From the NCBI GenBank assembly GCA_006218065.1, contig VBWE01000001.1:317063-381062 (forward strand): DNA of 64,000 bases. The letters are read 5' to 3'. The DNA comes from Bacteroidota bacterium (GTDB taxonomy: Bacteria > Bacteroidota > Bacteroidia > Palsa-965). The notes below the pieces were generated by a model. The model ran no database searches. It had not been told where the DNA came from and worked only from the letters and a program-made list of their open reading frames with translations. The first letter of the stretch is position 1. Each line of letters starts with the position of its first letter. The position numbers were made by a program, and so were the translations under genes. Shown here one piece after another: positions 40,087-48,689 of this stretch.

Positions 40087-40093
40087 GTAGTCC

Positions 40094-40338
40094 GGGACTC
40101 ACCCCCCGGCCCCCTCTCTCCGGGCGGGTTTCGTTCATTTTCCAAAGCTCCGTTTTTACATCACCCGCCCGCAAAGAGGGGGTGTCGTAATACTTTAATG
40201 CTGCGTCTTTGACGCAGCATTAAAGTAGTTCCTGCAATTTAAGTTGTGGCTCCCCCTCTTTGCGTCTTCGACGCAAAAGGATCTTCCGTTTCTGCCGACA
40301 TGTCGAAGGCGGAGAGAGGGGGCCGGGGGGTGAGTCCC
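40094..40338. repeat. Nested inverted-repeat element overlapping the 3' end of rnr
   Basis: This 245-bp element has three nested inverted repeats. The outer arms are 29 bp and perfect (40094-40122 with 40310-40338, core ACTCACCCCCCGGCCCCC). The middle arms are 13 bp (40170-40182 with 40252-40264). The central hairpin is 17 bp and perfect with loop TTT (40191-40207 with 40211-40227). A further 6-bp hairpin TGCGTC/GACGCA lies at 40261-40275. No transposase is nearby. Sequences like the CACCCCCCGGCCCC arm are, to my recollection, dispersed in many Bacteroidetes genomes. It resembles a MITE or REP-type element. Confidence 0.85.
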
Positions 40339-42601
40339 CGGATTTTCCAAAAGATTTCCCGGATTTGAACGACGTATTCCGGTCGATTTTTCCTTTTCTT
40401 CTTTGCTGCTGGTTGCCCGATGAAAAATCATCTTCTTCCACTTCCAGGTCAACCTGTTTCCGGATGATGTCCGCATTTTTTACACGCACGCGCACTTTAT
40501 CGCCGAGCTGGAATATGCGCCCCGTACGGTCGCCGCGGATACGGTATTGTTTTTCTTCGAAGATGTAAAAATCATCGTTCAGGCTGCGCAACCGCACAAG
40601 CCCCTCGCACTTGTTCTCGATTATCTCTACGAAGAATCCGAATTCCATCACGCCCGAAATCATGCCTTCGAAAACTTTGCCGAGTTGTCCGTTCAGGTAT
40701 TGTACCTGCTTGAACTTGATCGACGCGCGTTCCGCTTCCGCGGCTGTTTTTTCGCGTTCCGAACTGTGTTTGCACTGACTTTCGAGAGCAGACTCAACCG
40801 GCGCATGCCCGGCATTTTTTCCGGAATCCGTATCGAGATAATACTGCAGCAGCCGGTGCGCCATCACGTCGGGATAACGCCGGATGGGCGAAGTGAAATG
40901 CGTATAATAATCAAAACTCAGCCCGTAGTGCCCGGTGTTTTTTGTCGTGTAAATCGCTTTTGCCATCGTGCGCACGGCCAGCGTTTCGATCAGGTTCGCT
41001 TCCGGTTTTCCTTTCACGTCCTTCAGCAGTTTGTTCAGCGAAGCCGCGATGGCCTGCTCGCTGCCCACATCCATGCGGTATCCGAAGCTGCGCACAAAAA
41101 CACTGAAATCTTCTATTCGTCCAAGGTCGGGAGAGGCGTGTACGCGGTACACGAATGCGCGGCGCAGATCTTTCGGTACAATTTTTTGTTCTTCGCCGGC
41201 CTTGCGGCGCAGCGCAGCATATTCGGCCACGCGCCGGTTAGCCAGCAGCATAAAATCTTCGATGAGCTGGTTCGCATCTTTCATCACTTTGAAATACACG
41301 CCCGTCGGATCGCCTTTTTCATCGAGATGAAATTTCACTTCTTCTTTTTCGAAGGTGATCGATCCTTTGCGGAATCGTTCATCGCGCAGTTTTTTCGCAA
41401 GCCGGTTGAGCAGGTGAAGCTCGTCGGAAAAATCGCCGGCCGCGCCTTCGAGAATTTCCTGTACCTGTTCGTATGTAAATCGCCGGTCGGAATGAATGAC
41501 TGTCCGCCCAAACCATTCGCGGACAATTTTCGCATCATCGTTCATTTCGAAAACCGCCGAAAAGCAGAGCTTGTCTTCTTTCGGCCGTAGCGAGCAAACG
41601 TAATTCGAAAGCACTTCCGGCAGCATCGGGATCACACGATCAACTAAGTAAACCGAGGTGGCGCGGTTCAGCGCTTCTTTGTCCAGCGCCGATCCCGGGT
41701 GTACGTAATGGGAAACGTCGGCGATATGCACACCGATCTCCCAAAGTCCGTTGTCCAGCTTCCGTACCGAAAGCGCGTCATCGAAATCCTTCGCATCAAC
41801 GGGGTCGATGGTGAACGTGGTGATTTGCCGGAAGTCGCGGCGCTTAGCCACTTCTTCGGGCGTAATTGTAATATCGATTCCGGCAGCCGCATCTTCGATT
41901 TGTTTCGGGAAAGCCGAAGGCAGCCCGAATTCCACCATAATGGCGTTCATTTCGGTGGCATGTGTGCCGGGTTCTCCCAGGACGGAAATAATTTCACCCG
42001 TAGGGTTTTCCGAAAATTCGTCCCAGCCGGTGAGCCTGACCACGACTTTCTGCCCGTTTTTCGCGCCGCCGAGTTTTTCTTTCGGGATATAGAAATCGGG
42101 ATAACGTCCGCTGTCGGGTGTTACAAAGCCAAAACGGCCTTCGAGCGAAACGGCACCGACAAATTCCGTGCGTCCGCGCCGGATGATATCGACTACTTCG
42201 CCCTCTTCTTTCCCGTCGGAACGTCTCCGCGGGAAAACCTTGACTTTTACTGAATCGCCATGGAGTGCGCCGTTCGCGTTTCGTTCGGCGATATACACAT
42301 CTTCGGCTTTGTCTTCGGAGATCACATAAGCGGCTTTCCCGGTACTGGTAAAATCAATCCGGCCCGTGATCATGTGCTGGGCGTTCTTAACCTGGTATTT
42401 ACCGCGTTCGGATTCTTCTACCAATCCCTTTTTTTCCAGGTCCACCAGCAGGCTCAGAACAGCTTCCCGGTCCTGCGGGGTTTCCAGGGCGAGCGCCGAG
42501 GAAACCTGTTTGTAATTCAGCGCTTTACCCGGTTGGGCCTTAAGCACTTCGAGTACTTCTTCAAATAAGTAACGTTTCTTTCTTTTTTCTTTTTTTGTCA
42601 T
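40220..42601 (-). CDS. rnr: Ribonuclease R with repeat-derived C-terminal tail
   Basis: The 793-residue protein is RNase R, a processive 3'-5' exoribonuclease. An N-terminal winged-helix region (10-75) is followed by cold-shock domains (80-205). The RNB catalytic core has TIDPVDAKDFDDA at 264-276 with the metal-binding Asp residues. An S1 domain lies near 645-735, then a basic tail. The last 39 residues (755-793, starting GDSPPGPLSPPST) are encoded entirely by the nested inverted-repeat element, and the stop TAA at 40222-40220 sits in its central palindrome. The catalytic domains look intact, so activity is probably retained. Confidence 0.95.
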   Translation of the reverse strand: MTKKEKRKKRYLFEEVLEVLKAQPGKALNYKQVSSALALETPQDREAVLSLLVDLEKKGLVEESERGKYQVKNAQHMITGRIDFTSTGKAAYVISEDKAEDVYIAERNANGALHGDSVKVKVFPRRRSDGKEEGEVVDIIRRGRTEFVGAVSLEGRFGFVTPDSGRYPDFYIPKEKLGGAKNGQKVVVRLTGWDEFSENPTGEIISVLGEPGTHATEMNAIMVEFGLPSAFPKQIEDAAAGIDITITPEEVAKRRDFRQITTFTIDPVDAKDFDDALSVRKLDNGLWEIGVHIADVSHYVHPGSALDKEALNRATSVYLVDRVIPMLPEVLSNYVCSLRPKEDKLCFSAVFEMNDDAKIVREWFGRTVIHSDRRFTYEQVQEILEGAAGDFSDELHLLNRLAKKLRDERFRKGSITFEKEEVKFHLDEKGDPTGVYFKVMKDANQLIEDFMLLANRRVAEYAALRRKAGEEQKIVPKDLRRAFVYRVHASPDLGRIEDFSVFVRSFGYRMDVGSEQAIAASLNKLLKDVKGKPEANLIETLAVRTMAKAIYTTKNTGHYGLSFDYYTHFTSPIRRYPDVMAHRLLQYYLDTDSGKNAGHAPVESALESQCKHSSEREKTAAEAERASIKFKQVQYLNGQLGKVFEGMISGVMEFGFFVEIIENKCEGLVRLRSLNDDFYIFEEKQYRIRGDRTGRIFQLGDKVRVRVKNADIIRKQVDLEVEEDDFSSGNQQQRRKGKIDRNTSFKSGKSFGKSGDSPPGPLSPPSTCRQKRKILLRRRRKEGEPQLKLQELL

Positions 42602-42808: not shown

Positions 42809-45460
42809 ATGAAACACATGTACATGGGCATCGTCCGCCAATGTTTAATCATCTTCTCCCTTACCGTATTATTTCTTCTCACCAGCAAAACGGCAGAAGC
42901 CTGTCACGGCGTGGCACTGAATACGGTATCAGGCACATTATCGCCAACAGATCTCACAGTCAATGCGTTTTCAGATCCCGCCACCTGTGGCTGCGGACCA
43001 TACCGTATGGAGATTGAAGTAATTTGCGCGAACCTGAGTTTTACAGGCGTGTACAATTATTTCTCCTGGCTTTTCGGAGGATCCACCGTGGAAAACTGTG
43101 TGCTGGAAGCATACGACCCTTGTGTTATTCCGTTTTCCGGGCTTTGTCCCGGCGCAACCTACCAGTGGCGTGCGCGCGAATTTGTCGTAGGCTCCGGTTC
43201 GGCCGGGCCATGGTCAACTCCGCAAACGTTCACGGTTCCGGGAAGTCCGCCGCCGGTAACGGCAACAAGTTCCGCGAACAACAATACCGTTTGTATCGGC
43301 CAGACCGTTCAGCTGACAAGCGGCGGCAGCGGCGGATGCACAGGAATCTATTCATACTCCTGGGCGCCGACAGCAGGCCTTTCCAACCCGAACATTTCAA
43401 ATCCGGTAGCAACCATCAGCGGTCCGACCTGTTATACTGTTACTGTTACAGACGCCTGCATCGGTCTTGTCGGAACAGATACGGTTTGTATCAACATCGG
43501 CGCACCGCCTACACCCGGCACGGCTGCAGTAAACCCGCTTGCCGTTTGCTCCGGGCAGAGTGCAGACCTGACGATTACCGGTTACAGCGGAAACATCCAG
43601 TGGCAGGTATCGCCCAACGGATCCACCTGGTTCAATATTCCCGGCGCAACGAATGACACGGTCAACACCGGCCCGGTTTCATCGTCATTGTATTTCCAGG
43701 CCATTATTTCCGGTACCGGTTGCGGAACGTCCACATCAAATATTGTTGTTGTTACCGTGAACCCCGCGCCGCCTGCAGATGCAGGAGTAAACACGACCAT
43801 TTGCGTGGGGGCATCAGCAAACCTGACGGCTACTGGCGGAGTATCATACACCTGGATGCCGGGATCGCTCAGCGGATCATCCGTCAGCGTTTCCCCCGGA
43901 ACGACAACAACGTACACCGTTACAGTAACTGACGGAAACGGCTGCACAGCAACAGACCAGGTTACCGTAAATACGAGTACGATCGCAACGAACGCAGGTC
44001 CCGATGTAAGTATCTGCTCCGGCAGCCAGGGAACGCTGATCGCAAACGCTCCGGGGGCAACTACGTATTCATGGAGCCCGCCTGGCGGATTGAGCAGCAC
44101 GACAATTTCAAATCCCGTTGCCAACCCGTCAAGCACAACGACCTATGTTGTGGTTGCAACAAATGCGAACGGCTGCTCGGATTCCGACACGATCACCGTT
44201 AACGTTACTCCCGCACCGCCCGTCCTGGCCAGCGCCGATACCATCATGTGCGCCGGCGGAACAGCAATGATTTCAGCAAGCGGAGCAACAACATACACCT
44301 GGCAGCCCGGCAACCTGAGCGGATCATCTGTATCCGTTACGCCGTCAGCAACCACAACGTTTGTAGTAACAGGAGATAACGGCGGGTGCTTAGATAACGA
44401 CACCGTTGTTGTAACAATAACACCTCCACCGACAGCATTTGCAGGACCGGACTTCGGTATCTGCACCGGCAACCAGGGAACCCTGAATGCAACCGGAGGA
44501 ACAGCATATACCTGGGCGCCAGGTTCCGGAATTATCGGTAACCCGAACCAGGCGAATGTGACCATTGCGCCGACAACCTCCACCACATATACAGTAACCG
44601 TTGTCGGACCGGGAGGATGTATTTCAACAGACCAGATTACGGTTAACGTAAATACAAACCCGAGTGTAACGGCAACAGCAACATCCCCGACAATCTGCGC
44701 GGGAGCAAGCACGGGACTTACGGCAAACGGAGCAACCAGTTATACCTGGAGTCCGTCAAGCGGCCTGAGCAGCACGACGGTTTCCAACCCGACAGCCAAC
44801 CCGCAATCCACAACAACGTACACGGTCATTGGTGTGAATACCAACGGATGCAACGATACCGATATGGTTACCGTTACCATAATTCCGACTCCGATTATTA
44901 CCGGTTATTATTCAACACCGACACCTTGCGGAGATACCAGCGGAACAATTGTACTGGGAGCTGTTGCAGGTGGTGTGGGGCCATATACTTATACGCTGAA
45001 CGGAAACCCGGTAACGCCGATCAACAACACGATCAACTCGCTTAACCAGGGAAATTATACTATCCAGATCACCGATTCGTATGGATGCACCAGCAACATT
45101 TCTACAAGCGTCGGTGTTGACATGAGCCTGCTTTCTATCAACGGCGCCGCAAGCCCGATGGTAGGCGTGGCGCCGCAGCCGGTCGGATTCGGAAGCCAGA
45201 CAGGCGGTGGAATCAACAACGTGATCTGGGATTTCGGCGACGGAAGTACGACGGTAAGCGGAAATAATCCGACACATACCTACGGTGCGCCGGGAGTTTA
45301 TATGGTTGTGGTTATGGGCTACAACGACCTGCTGATGTGTACAGTTTACGATACACTATATATAGAGATCTTCCCTGAAGCGATCGTAGTCGTTCCGAAT
45401 GTTTTCACACCGAACAAGCGTAACTACCGGCTGGGACGGAAAAACCAAAGGCGGCAATGA
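42809..45460 (+). CDS. T9SS type B adhesin-like protein, C-terminus frameshifted
   Basis: This 883-residue frame has a signal peptide-like start (CLIIFSLTVLFLLTSKTAEA) and an FN3-like first module (residues 40-145). Ig-like repeats follow, as in the paralogue at 45664, then a PKD-like domain (VIWDFGDGSTTV ... HTYGAPGVYMVVV). The type B sorting domain starts normally (IVVVPNVFTPN) and is then lost: after base 45415 the reading is shifted and ends in KRNYRLGRKNQRRQ. The rest of the sorting domain survives in another frame (45417-45557). As written, the protein could not be sorted by T9SS. Either it is a recent pseudogene or the sequence has an assembly deletion. Confidence 0.8.
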   Translation: MKHMYMGIVRQCLIIFSLTVLFLLTSKTAEACHGVALNTVSGTLSPTDLTVNAFSDPATCGCGPYRMEIEVICANLSFTGVYNYFSWLFGGSTVENCVLEAYDPCVIPFSGLCPGATYQWRAREFVVGSGSAGPWSTPQTFTVPGSPPPVTATSSANNNTVCIGQTVQLTSGGSGGCTGIYSYSWAPTAGLSNPNISNPVATISGPTCYTVTVTDACIGLVGTDTVCINIGAPPTPGTAAVNPLAVCSGQSADLTITGYSGNIQWQVSPNGSTWFNIPGATNDTVNTGPVSSSLYFQAIISGTGCGTSTSNIVVVTVNPAPPADAGVNTTICVGASANLTATGGVSYTWMPGSLSGSSVSVSPGTTTTYTVTVTDGNGCTATDQVTVNTSTIATNAGPDVSICSGSQGTLIANAPGATTYSWSPPGGLSSTTISNPVANPSSTTTYVVVATNANGCSDSDTITVNVTPAPPVLASADTIMCAGGTAMISASGATTYTWQPGNLSGSSVSVTPSATTTFVVTGDNGGCLDNDTVVVTITPPPTAFAGPDFGICTGNQGTLNATGGTAYTWAPGSGIIGNPNQANVTIAPTTSTTYTVTVVGPGGCISTDQITVNVNTNPSVTATATSPTICAGASTGLTANGATSYTWSPSSGLSSTTVSNPTANPQSTTTYTVIGVNTNGCNDTDMVTVTIIPTPIITGYYSTPTPCGDTSGTIVLGAVAGGVGPYTYTLNGNPVTPINNTINSLNQGNYTIQITDSYGCTSNISTSVGVDMSLLSINGAASPMVGVAPQPVGFGSQTGGGINNVIWDFGDGSTTVSGNNPTHTYGAPGVYMVVVMGYNDLLMCTVYDTLYIEIFPEAIVVVPNVFTPNKRNYRLGRKNQRRQ
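43501..45415 (+). repeat. 1.9-kb paralogous block, copy 1
   Basis: This block encodes the Ig-like and PKD-like modules of the 42809 gene and aligns over its full length with 46567-48486 in the next gene. Similarity is moderate at the left and rises to near identity over roughly the last 280 bp (from about 45130), a gradient expected from gene conversion. Confidence 0.8.
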
Positions 45461-45557
45461 TGCCGAAGACGGTGTATATTATTACATAATTGAAGCCACC
45501 GGTTTCGACGATAACGTGAAAACAGTTACCGGTTTTGTTCAGCTGATCCGGGGATAA
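45417..45557 (+). pseudogene. Out-of-frame remnant of the type B sorting domain (42809 gene)
   Basis: Read from 45417, this frame gives SVTTGWDGKTKGGNDAED, then GVYYYIIEATGFDD and finally TGFVQLIRG before TAA. That is the second half of a gliding-associated C-terminal domain. It lacks the preceding 'GDGxND...YNRWG' portion, about 35 residues compared with intact family members, and is one base out of frame with the gene before it. Confidence 0.85.
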
Positions 45558-45606
45558 AAAGACCGACAAAATTTTTGTCTGTTGCCCCGACCAACGTAAA
45601 AAAAAT

Positions 45607-45636
45607 AAACAGGCTGTTTTTTTGAACAGCCTGTTT
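45607..45636 (+). terminator. Hairpin between the two adhesin genes
   Basis: A 12-bp perfect stem AAACAGGCTGTT/AACAGCCTGTTT with a six-base loop lies 50 nt after the sorting-domain remnant and 28 nt before the next gene. The T tract after it is weak. Confidence 0.65.
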
Positions 45637-45663
45637 GTATTCAAGACATAACAGGAAAAGCAT

Positions 45664-48489
45664 ATGAAACAACTCAAAAAAACGCTCTCGGTTTTTTTCA
45701 TCTTGTCGGTTTTCTTTTCAGAATCTGTCCGCGCCCAGGTTGTTACTGCAACAGGAGACACGCTCATTTGCCCTCCGGGAACAGCAACGCTGGCGGCATC
45801 CACTACGCTGACCACCACCACAAACTATTCGATCGCGTCAATCCCGTATGTTCCGTATTCGTATAACTCCGGAACATTTATTGCGATGACGGACGACTCG
45901 CAGCAGGGTCCGTTTCCTATCGGGTTCAACTTCGAATTTTTCGGTGTTTGTTATACAGACTATTATATCGGATCAAACGGCTGGGTTGCTTTTTCCCCGG
46001 AAGCAACAACATTCACCTCCGCGCCGATTCCTTCAACAAACCCGTCGGTTCCTGCAAACTGTATTATGGGTCCCTGGCAGGACTGGCATCCCGGCATTGC
46101 CGGCGGACCGTATATCAATTATGTGATGCAGGGTGTCGCGCCTTTCCGACGCCTGATTGTTTCCTGGAACAACTGCCCGATGTTTTCGTGCACAACCACA
46201 CTTGGAACTTTCCAGATCGTTATTTATGAAACGACCAACGTTATTGAAAACTACCTCCTGGTAAAACCGAATTGCCTCGCCTGGGCCGGCGGAACAGCGG
46301 TGCAGGGATTGCATGATCCGACACGTACTATCGGGCTCACCGTTCCGGGACGCAACAGTACGCAGTGGACGGCAAACAACGAAGGATGGAGATATACTCC
46401 TTCGGGCGCCCCGACAATTTCCTGGTACCAGGTTGGTAATCCGACGGTACTCGGCACAGGAGCAACCTTCAATGCATCGCCGTCTTCAGCAGCCAATTAT
46501 GCTGCTGTTGTAACGGACGTTTGCACCGGCAACTCGTTTTCCGATACCGTCAGCGTAGGCATTCTCCCGCCTCCGACAGCAGGCACGGCAACGGTTGCTC
46601 CGCTCGCGGTATGTTCGGGACAAAGCGCTACACTCGTCCTCGGCGGAAACAGTGGCGCGATTCAATGGCAGGTTTCTCCCAACGGAACATCCTGGTTCAA
46701 TATTCCCGGCGGAACGAATGATACGCTGAGTACAGGACCGGTATCTTCTTCGCTATACTTCCAGGCGATTGTTTCAGCCGGACCCGGCGAATGCGGAACG
46801 GCGACGAGTAACATTGTTGTTGTTACCGTAAACCCGGCGCCACCGGCAGATGCAGGACTTAACACGACGATCTGTTCGGGCGACAGCGCAACGCTGACGG
46901 CAACCGGAGGAGTATCCTACAGCTGGATGCCCGGTTCTGGTTCCGGTGCGTCGATTACTGTTGCGCCTTCAACGAACACGACATACACCGTAACGGTAAC
47001 TGATGGAAACGGCTGCACGGCAACGGACCAGGTTACTGTCAGCACCAGCGGAATCAGCACAACGGCCGGACCGGATATTACGATCTGTTCCGGCGGACAG
47101 GGAACGCTCGTGGCCAATGCCAGCGGAGCAACCGCGTACCTGTGGACGCCAGCTGCCGGATTAAGCAACGATACTATTTCCAACCCGGTTGCAAACCCGA
47201 CAACAACATCAACCTATGTTGTGACGGTTACGAATGCGAACGGATGCACAGGAACGGATACAATTACAGTAAACGTTACTCCTGCACCGGTGGTTCTCGC
47301 AAGTAATGATACCGCATTGTGCACAGGCGGATCAGCAACATTAACGGCAACAGGAGCAACGACATACACCTGGCAGCCCGGCAACCTCACCGGATCATCG
47401 GTAACGGTTACTCCCGCAACAACCACAACGTTTGTCGTAACAGGAGATAACGCCGGTTGTCTGAATACGGACACCGTTGTCGTGTCGATCACGCCGCCGC
47501 CGGTCGCTTTTGCCGGGCCGGATTTCGGTATTTGCACAGGAGCGCAGGGAACCCTGAATGCGACCGGCGGAACAGCATACAGCTGGGCGCCCAGTTCCGG
47601 AATACTCGGCAATCCGAACCAGGCCAGTGTAACCATTGCACCGACAACAACAACGACATATACCGTTACCGTAACAGGTGCAGGCGGATGCATTTCAACA
47701 GACCAGATCACGGTAACGATAAACGCGCTTCCGTCGGTTACCGCTACGGCCAATTCGCCCACCATATGCTCCGGCGCAAGCACGGGACTATCTGCCGCAG
47801 GCGCATCCAGCTACACCTGGACTCCGAACAGCAACCTGACCAACCCGACCAGCGCCGCCCCGACCGCAAACCCGACCGCCACCACAACCTATACGGTGAT
47901 TGGCGTGGATGTGAACGGCTGCAGCGATACGGATATGGTTACGGTAACGGTGATTCAGCCGCCGGTAATCACAGGCTATTACAGCACACCGACGCCCTGC
48001 GGAGATACCAGCGGAACGATCGTGCTCGGTAGCGTTTCGGGAAGCGGCGGACCGTATACGTACACATTAAACGGAAACCCGGTAACACCCATCAACAACA
48101 CGATCAACTCGCTCAACCAGGGTAATTACACCGTGCAGGTAACCGATCAGTACGGTTGTACAAGTACCATTTCCACCAGCGTGGGACTTGACATGACGCA
48201 GCTCTCGCTCAACGGCGCCGCAAGCCCGATGATAGGCGTAGCGCCGCAGCCGGTCGGATTCGGAAGCCAGACAGGCGGTGGAATCAATAACGTGATCTGG
48301 GATTTCGGCGACGGAAGCACGCCGGTAAGCGGCAGCAACCCGACACATACCTACGGTGCACCGGGAGTTTATATGGTTGTGGTCATGGGCTACAACGACC
48401 TGCTGATGTGTACCGTTTACGATACATTATATATAGAGATCTTCCCTGAAGCGATCGTAGTCGTTCCGAATGTTTTCACACCGAACTGA
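45664..48489 (+). CDS. T9SS type B adhesin-like protein, C-terminus truncated by frameshift
   Basis: The 941-residue frame has a signal peptide (KTLSVFFILSVFFSESVRAQ). Its N-terminal module of about 270 residues (GFNFEFFGVCYTDYYIGSNG ...) is unrelated to that of its paralogue. From about 46567 it carries the same Ig-like repeats and PKD-like domain, then IVVVPNVFTPN and a premature TGA at 48487-48489. The remaining sorting domain continues one base out of phase from 48483 to 48689. The break is at the same nucleotide as in the 42809 gene but the lost segment is shorter, so these are two separate deletions or two assembly faults at one site. Confidence 0.8.
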   Translation: MKQLKKTLSVFFILSVFFSESVRAQVVTATGDTLICPPGTATLAASTTLTTTTNYSIASIPYVPYSYNSGTFIAMTDDSQQGPFPIGFNFEFFGVCYTDYYIGSNGWVAFSPEATTFTSAPIPSTNPSVPANCIMGPWQDWHPGIAGGPYINYVMQGVAPFRRLIVSWNNCPMFSCTTTLGTFQIVIYETTNVIENYLLVKPNCLAWAGGTAVQGLHDPTRTIGLTVPGRNSTQWTANNEGWRYTPSGAPTISWYQVGNPTVLGTGATFNASPSSAANYAAVVTDVCTGNSFSDTVSVGILPPPTAGTATVAPLAVCSGQSATLVLGGNSGAIQWQVSPNGTSWFNIPGGTNDTLSTGPVSSSLYFQAIVSAGPGECGTATSNIVVVTVNPAPPADAGLNTTICSGDSATLTATGGVSYSWMPGSGSGASITVAPSTNTTYTVTVTDGNGCTATDQVTVSTSGISTTAGPDITICSGGQGTLVANASGATAYLWTPAAGLSNDTISNPVANPTTTSTYVVTVTNANGCTGTDTITVNVTPAPVVLASNDTALCTGGSATLTATGATTYTWQPGNLTGSSVTVTPATTTTFVVTGDNAGCLNTDTVVVSITPPPVAFAGPDFGICTGAQGTLNATGGTAYSWAPSSGILGNPNQASVTIAPTTTTTYTVTVTGAGGCISTDQITVTINALPSVTATANSPTICSGASTGLSAAGASSYTWTPNSNLTNPTSAAPTANPTATTTYTVIGVDVNGCSDTDMVTVTVIQPPVITGYYSTPTPCGDTSGTIVLGSVSGSGGPYTYTLNGNPVTPINNTINSLNQGNYTVQVTDQYGCTSTISTSVGLDMTQLSLNGAASPMIGVAPQPVGFGSQTGGGINNVIWDFGDGSTPVSGSNPTHTYGAPGVYMVVVMGYNDLLMCTVYDTLYIEIFPEAIVVVPNVFTPN
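46567..48486 (+). repeat. 1.9-kb paralogous block, copy 2
   Basis: It aligns with 43501-45415; both end at the same TTTTCACACCGAAC sequence, beyond which each gene has a different deletion. Confidence 0.8.
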
Positions 48490-48689
48490 AAGATGCGAAA
48501 TACACCATTTACAACCGCTGGGGTCAGCTTATCCGCACCATTCAAAGCGTAACTACCGGCTGGGACGGAAAAACCGAAGGTGGCAATGATGCAGAGGATG
48601 GCGTGTACTATTATATTCTCGAAGCCACCGGTTTTGACGATAACGTGAAAACGGTTACCGGGTTTGTTCAGCTGATCCGGGGCAAGTAG
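48483..48689 (+). pseudogene. Out-of-frame remnant of the type B sorting domain (45664 gene)
   Basis: Translation from 48483 gives ELKDAKYTIYNRWGQLIRTI, then SVTTGWDGKTEGGNDAED, GVYYYILEA and TGFVQLIRGK before TAG. This retains the YNRWG motif missing from the other remnant and lacks only the 'xDGxNDxF...' stretch. The bases GAAC at the junction also start the retained segment, suggesting a microhomology deletion or a mis-joined assembly. Confidence 0.85.

Follow-up and report, generated by a model that had tools for sequence, protein, structure and literature searches.

Export of SprB and similar proteins by the type IX system (T9SS) depends on the CHU_C domain, a type B C-terminal domain (CTD) that has also been proposed to anchor these proteins to PorP-like proteins (PMC9143113). 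Among short-read de Bruijn assemblers, IDBA-UD accepts even values of the word length k (PMC5242441). In the present work we analyzed a window of 64,000 nucleotides from a Bacteroidota bacterium (assembly GCA_006218065.1, contig VBWE01000001.1), in which two neighboring genes, here called A and B, lose their reading frames at the same point of the CHU_C domain. We estimate a probability of about 94% that both breaks are assembly mis-joins at a collapsed repeat of the two paralogs and correspond to no biological feature; A and B are probably intact in the cell.

Two tandem paralogs with a split sorting domain

Genes A and B are head-to-tail tandem paralogs of the T9SS surface-protein type (CHU_C / TIGR04131), and both contain Ig_7 (PF19081) and PKD domains. 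Their DNA is ~87-89% identical over the C-terminal 640 bases, and the duplication is recent. Gene A is the ortholog of the single rnr-linked gene of same-family genomes. The features of the locus are compiled in Table 1.

Table 1. Coordinates in the window of the genes, repeats, proposed joins and displaced domain remainders.
Feature	Position	Strand	Description
Gene A as assembled	42809..45460	+	Ig_7/PKD-repeat surface protein, truncated; short out-of-frame tail after FTPN
59-bp perfect A/B repeat, copy in A	45357..45415	+	ends exactly at break
Proposed gapless scaffold join in A	45415..45416	.	family spacing (~101 nt absent) and 59-bp signature
Rest of the CHU_C domain of A, other frame	45417..45557	+	natural stop; profile positions 45-88 of 88, E 7e-15
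Gene B as assembled	45664..48489	+	tandem paralog of A, truncated at FTPN and stop
59-bp perfect A/B repeat, copy in B	48428..48486	+	ends exactly at break
Proposed gapless scaffold join in B	48486..48487	.	family spacing (~43 nt absent) and 59-bp signature
Rest of the CHU_C domain of B, other frame	48489..48689	+	natural stop; profile positions 26-88, E 6e-23

As assembled, the C-terminal PF13585/TIGR04131 domain is present in both genes but split over two frames. The initial annotation had placed the failure of both frames immediately after VPNVFTPN, and our coordinates agree: the frames are open through this motif and are lost at the next base, right after ...CACACCGAAC, between 45415 and 45416 in A, which ends with FTPNKRNYRLGRKNQRRQ and a stop, and between 48486 and 48487 in B, which stops directly after FTPN. 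The upstream halves match positions 1-9 of the family profile. The remainder of A reads SVTTGWDGK...LIRG up to its stop, and that of B, which matches PF13585 with an E value of 5e-12, reads KDAKYTIYNRWGQ...LIRGK.

The length of the missing material was judged from the spacing between TPN and WDG in 60 intact domains of this genome and of relatives. The median spacing in intact members is 39 residues, compared with 24 in B and 5 in A, which gives ~101 nt missing in A (2 mod 3) and ~43 nt in B (1 mod 3). These values are in line with the losses first estimated, ~35 versus ~12-15 residues, and, as was also claimed, both shift the frame, since neither is a multiple of three. The assembly holds 61 matches to TIGR04131, none of them with an internal stop; B is the sole fragment among them cut at the break point (it starts at profile position 24), and no other copy among these matches is cut there. 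A is too short to be listed among the 61.

In five same-family genomes (G002, G004, G006, G008 and G009), the orthologous locus beside rnr holds a single gene of this type, and its CHU_C domain is intact; the same is true of the rnr-adjacent locus in a genome from another family (G054). A search for a close relative with an intact A/B pair gave none, and for the C-terminal region the best orthologs are ~45% identical.

Two further observations concern the composition of the neighborhood. A carries the N-terminus typical of its own family; the N-terminal ~290 residues of B (window 45664-46530) are unmatched at the rnr-linked locus in genomes of the same family and resemble the rnr-adjacent protein of the other-family genome (G054, L187), a pattern that suggests domain exchange between the two gene types. 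The window also includes a dispersed element of ~250 bp at 40087-40342 (C78:357149-357404), which is strongly self-complementary, with a single-strand DNA fold z-score of -15. Over the examined third of the genome, related copies are located at more than 10 places, including contig ends. This element overlaps the 3' end of rnr (40220-42601, minus strand), and about 40 codons at the end of that gene come from it; of the 793 residues in the rnr product, alignments with RNase R homologs extend only to about residue 721-749.

Divergence between A and B around the breaks

Over the 135 bases after the break of A, 13 synonymous and 2 non-synonymous changes separate the two genes. With a dS of 0.61 versus a dN of 0.02, the codons past the breaks must have been translated for almost the whole period in which A and B diverged; they are under strong purifying selection, in a frame that, judging from these substitutions, was read until very recently or is read still. 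Since the breaks are not old, either two independent and very recent deletions occurred at one base, or the breaks are absent from the organism.

Upstream, synonymous differences are scarce in the 135 bases that precede the breaks (window 45281-45415 and 48352-48486), with 4 in ~32 sites versus 42 in ~84 in the preceding 345 bases (p=2e-4). A recent tract of gene conversion between A and B likely gave the starts of the two sorting domains more than 60 bp of identity, and at the break site probably nothing but this tract is real biology.

Exact repeats in the assembly

The stretch on the left of each break is a perfect A/B match of exactly 59 bp. Because the same 59 bases stand before the break in both genes, the common breakpoint exceeds chance. 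At the DNA level, VPNVFTPN occurs only in A and B, and we found in the assembly neither a third place closely matching their flanking DNA nor a third, collapsed or inverted copy of the flanking segments.

Exact repeats were searched on both strands of 1,777,167 bases of the assembly, approximately one third of the genome. In the first 766 kb, the longest repeat was 59 bp, with two cases: the A/B pair and one that begins at the first base of contig C60. This coincidence led us to suspect a graph with k=60, which predicts more repeats of 59 bp, and none of 60 bp, at gaps and contig ends. On unseen sequence, the next 695 kb gave four further 59-mers and zero 60-mers, and a further 316 kb gave three new 59-mers, each at a contig end or an N-gap. 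In the 1.78 Mb there are thus nine exact repeats of 59 bp, the maximum in the searched part, and none of at least 60 bp on either strand. According to a fit to the repeats of 35-58 bp in the first 1.46 Mb, 0.85 59-mers were expected and 6 were seen (P 2.6e-4), while 6.2 repeats of at least 60 bp were expected and 0 were seen.

The location of these repeats is also distinctive: 6/9 of the 59-mers adjoin an N-gap or contig end, versus 5/96 of the repeats of 40-58 bp (p=2e-5). One 59-mer pairs the end of C25 with the end of C60, another (C2:31262-31320) runs up to an N12 gap, and an N32 gap in C8 has 59-mers on both sides (C8:1378-1436 and C8:1469-1527). C18 ends with exactly the 59 bp with which C17 starts; the overlap lies in a repeat-protein gene, and the two contigs may be neighbors in the genome. 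Two pairs of 59-mers are without sign of a join (a tandem repeat in C7 and an intergenic repeat shared by C15 and C4), and most coding repeats shorter than 59 bp are crossed by open frames.

A 400-kb stretch of another genome, used as a control, contained one 57-mer and nothing longer; for this reason, a lack of 60-mers would by itself be weak evidence, and the weight rests on the excess at 59 bp and on the location at gaps, not on the cap. A de Bruijn graph with k=60 leaves just this k-1 footprint, an excess at 59 bp and nothing longer.

A second broken gene and wrong gap sizes

A 59-mer away from any N-gap may hide a gapless join, and we examined this at C60:1497-1555, which is identical to the start of the contig (C60:1-59). 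The 82 bp that follow the repeat in the contig-start copy are absent between C60:1555 and 1556; beyond this point the two copies match again over 41 bp. A secreted-protein gene at C60:1497-1612 (G000, L162) is frameshifted exactly there, with the signal peptide MKHTLLLAGLLASMNAMA in one frame and ...DGKTTITMSSDFEGEV in another; two paralogs on C60 are intact and read straight through (MKQILLLAGLLASMNAMAFCGFYVAKADAKLFNKTSEV...). This position is a second gapless assembly join, in a gene unrelated to T9SS or to VPNVFTPN, and the factor common to it and to the breaks of A and B is the assembly, not the domain.

The N-gaps of the assembly point to errors in distance as well. At an N40 gap (C77:33899-33938; G000, L171), in a gene that we take to be pyruvate dehydrogenase E1-like, the flanks overlap by 5 bp (ATAAC), and this overlap restores a continuous protein frame (ADQYN / NGKDNVTLCYMGDGAVRQG). 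The gap is spurious and its estimate ~45 bp too long. Exact overlaps of the flanks are also found at gaps in C49, C6 and C40:149207. The gap sizes of the scaffolder are unreliable, and distance errors of the same size in the opposite direction would give the gapless joins of A and B.

Origin of the breaks

In the explanation that we propose, a short-read de Bruijn assembly ended with a word length of 60, and its scaffolding step introduced both breaks as gapless joins, IDBA-UD being one candidate assembler. A and B, intact in the cell, would be perfectly alike over at least 60 bp where the sorting domain begins. This repeat would collapse in the graph, leaving contigs from A and from B that each end 59 bases into it, at ...CACACCGAAC. 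Paired reads would then link the left and right contigs, but with their distance wrongly estimated at zero or below, and pasting them without Ns would lose ~101 nt in A and ~43 nt in B; that the software trims unchecked at negative distance estimates is something we infer. One observation goes against the plain k-1 rule: the right piece of B starts at 48487, 30 bp further left than the predicted 48517, a prediction that assumes that the true A and B are identical up to the first right-hand difference. For a start at 48487, A and B would have to differ within the missing stretch, or the contig would have to have been extended to some degree.

An assembler mis-join had been one of two options in the initial annotation. 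The mis-join itself is strongly supported, the 59-bp repeat having the assembly-wide k-1 length; its cause has to be revised, from a motif shared by many genes to the perfect repeat of the A/B pair itself. A join through VPNVFTPN could have drawn on dozens of genes, given the 61 CHU_C/TIGR04131 domains of the genome, but it is contradicted by the confinement of the DNA-level motif to A and B, whose flanks match no third place closely, and we regard it as extremely improbable. No more credible is a history in which an old deletion preceded the duplication and A later underwent a second deletion around it. The stretch missing in B does lie within that missing in A (43 nt plus a further 58 nt), but the dN/dS downstream of the breaks contradicts a deletion of that age, the differences being nearly all synonymous and the frame having been read through most of the divergence. 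A second deletion would also have to begin at precisely the base where the first did, with no help from microhomology, which is zero at the junction of A taken as a further deletion from a B-like state.

The other original option was a hypervariable, recombination-prone site at which real, recent and independent deletions switch off the T9SS display of A and B, by phase variation or pseudogenization. The frames are indeed broken in the sequence as given, and the few synonymous differences before the breaks are a sign of gene conversion. Against this stand the run of identity equal to the assembly-wide maximum of 59 bp, for which deletions offer no account, the unrelated C60 gene with a break of the same anatomy, the absence of breaks at this point in other CHU_C domains of the genome, and the lack of a third or inverted copy of the flanking segments in the assembly. 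If the truncations were real, the products of A and B would be without a sorting signal and their display would not be expected. We consider real deletions very unlikely, and the option of a hypervariable, phase-variable site is not supported, given the unrelated family broken likewise at a 59-bp repeat and the purifying selection on the downstream codons; phase variation is without support. A related possibility, that a recombination hotspot at the start of the T9SS sorting domain, fed by gene conversion between the tandem paralogs, deletes the signal in part of the population, is likewise very unlikely; were it true, the display of both proteins would be off and the 59-bp coincidence would be due to chance.

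The assembly mis-join carries a general caution: in short-read drafts, gapless joins at recent tandem paralogs can mimic coordinated gene inactivation. A test that needs no reads is to compare the exact repeat at a suspicious break with the longest exact repeat of the assembly, and here this comparison clears two T9SS surface proteins of the label of pseudogenes.

Comparison with known systems

If intact, A and B would be ordinary type B CTD surface proteins exported by T9SS. Like SprB of Flavobacterium johnsoniae and other substrates with a type B CTD / CHU_C domain (PF13585, TIGR04131), they have Ig-like/PKD repeats before the domain, and the order within it, VPNVFTPN...YNRWGQ...WDGK...GxxxLIR, is that of type B CTD substrates. 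Unlike in SprB-type substrates, the domain of A and B is interrupted as assembled, and nothing suggests that it differs in the cell. With phase-variable surface proteins of Bacteroidota, the locus shares frame breaks in surface proteins that are tandem paralogs; unlike at those loci, no invertible segment, slippage of repeat units or mixed population could be shown at A and B. The likeness to collapsed-repeat mis-joins of even-k, IDBA-type short-read de Bruijn assemblies extends to the overlaps of k-1 bases at contig ends, the N-gap sizes that are estimates and the absence of exact repeats of k or more. Unlike the usual mis-joins of such assemblies, those of A and B carry no Ns, and so they pass for genuine frameshifts.
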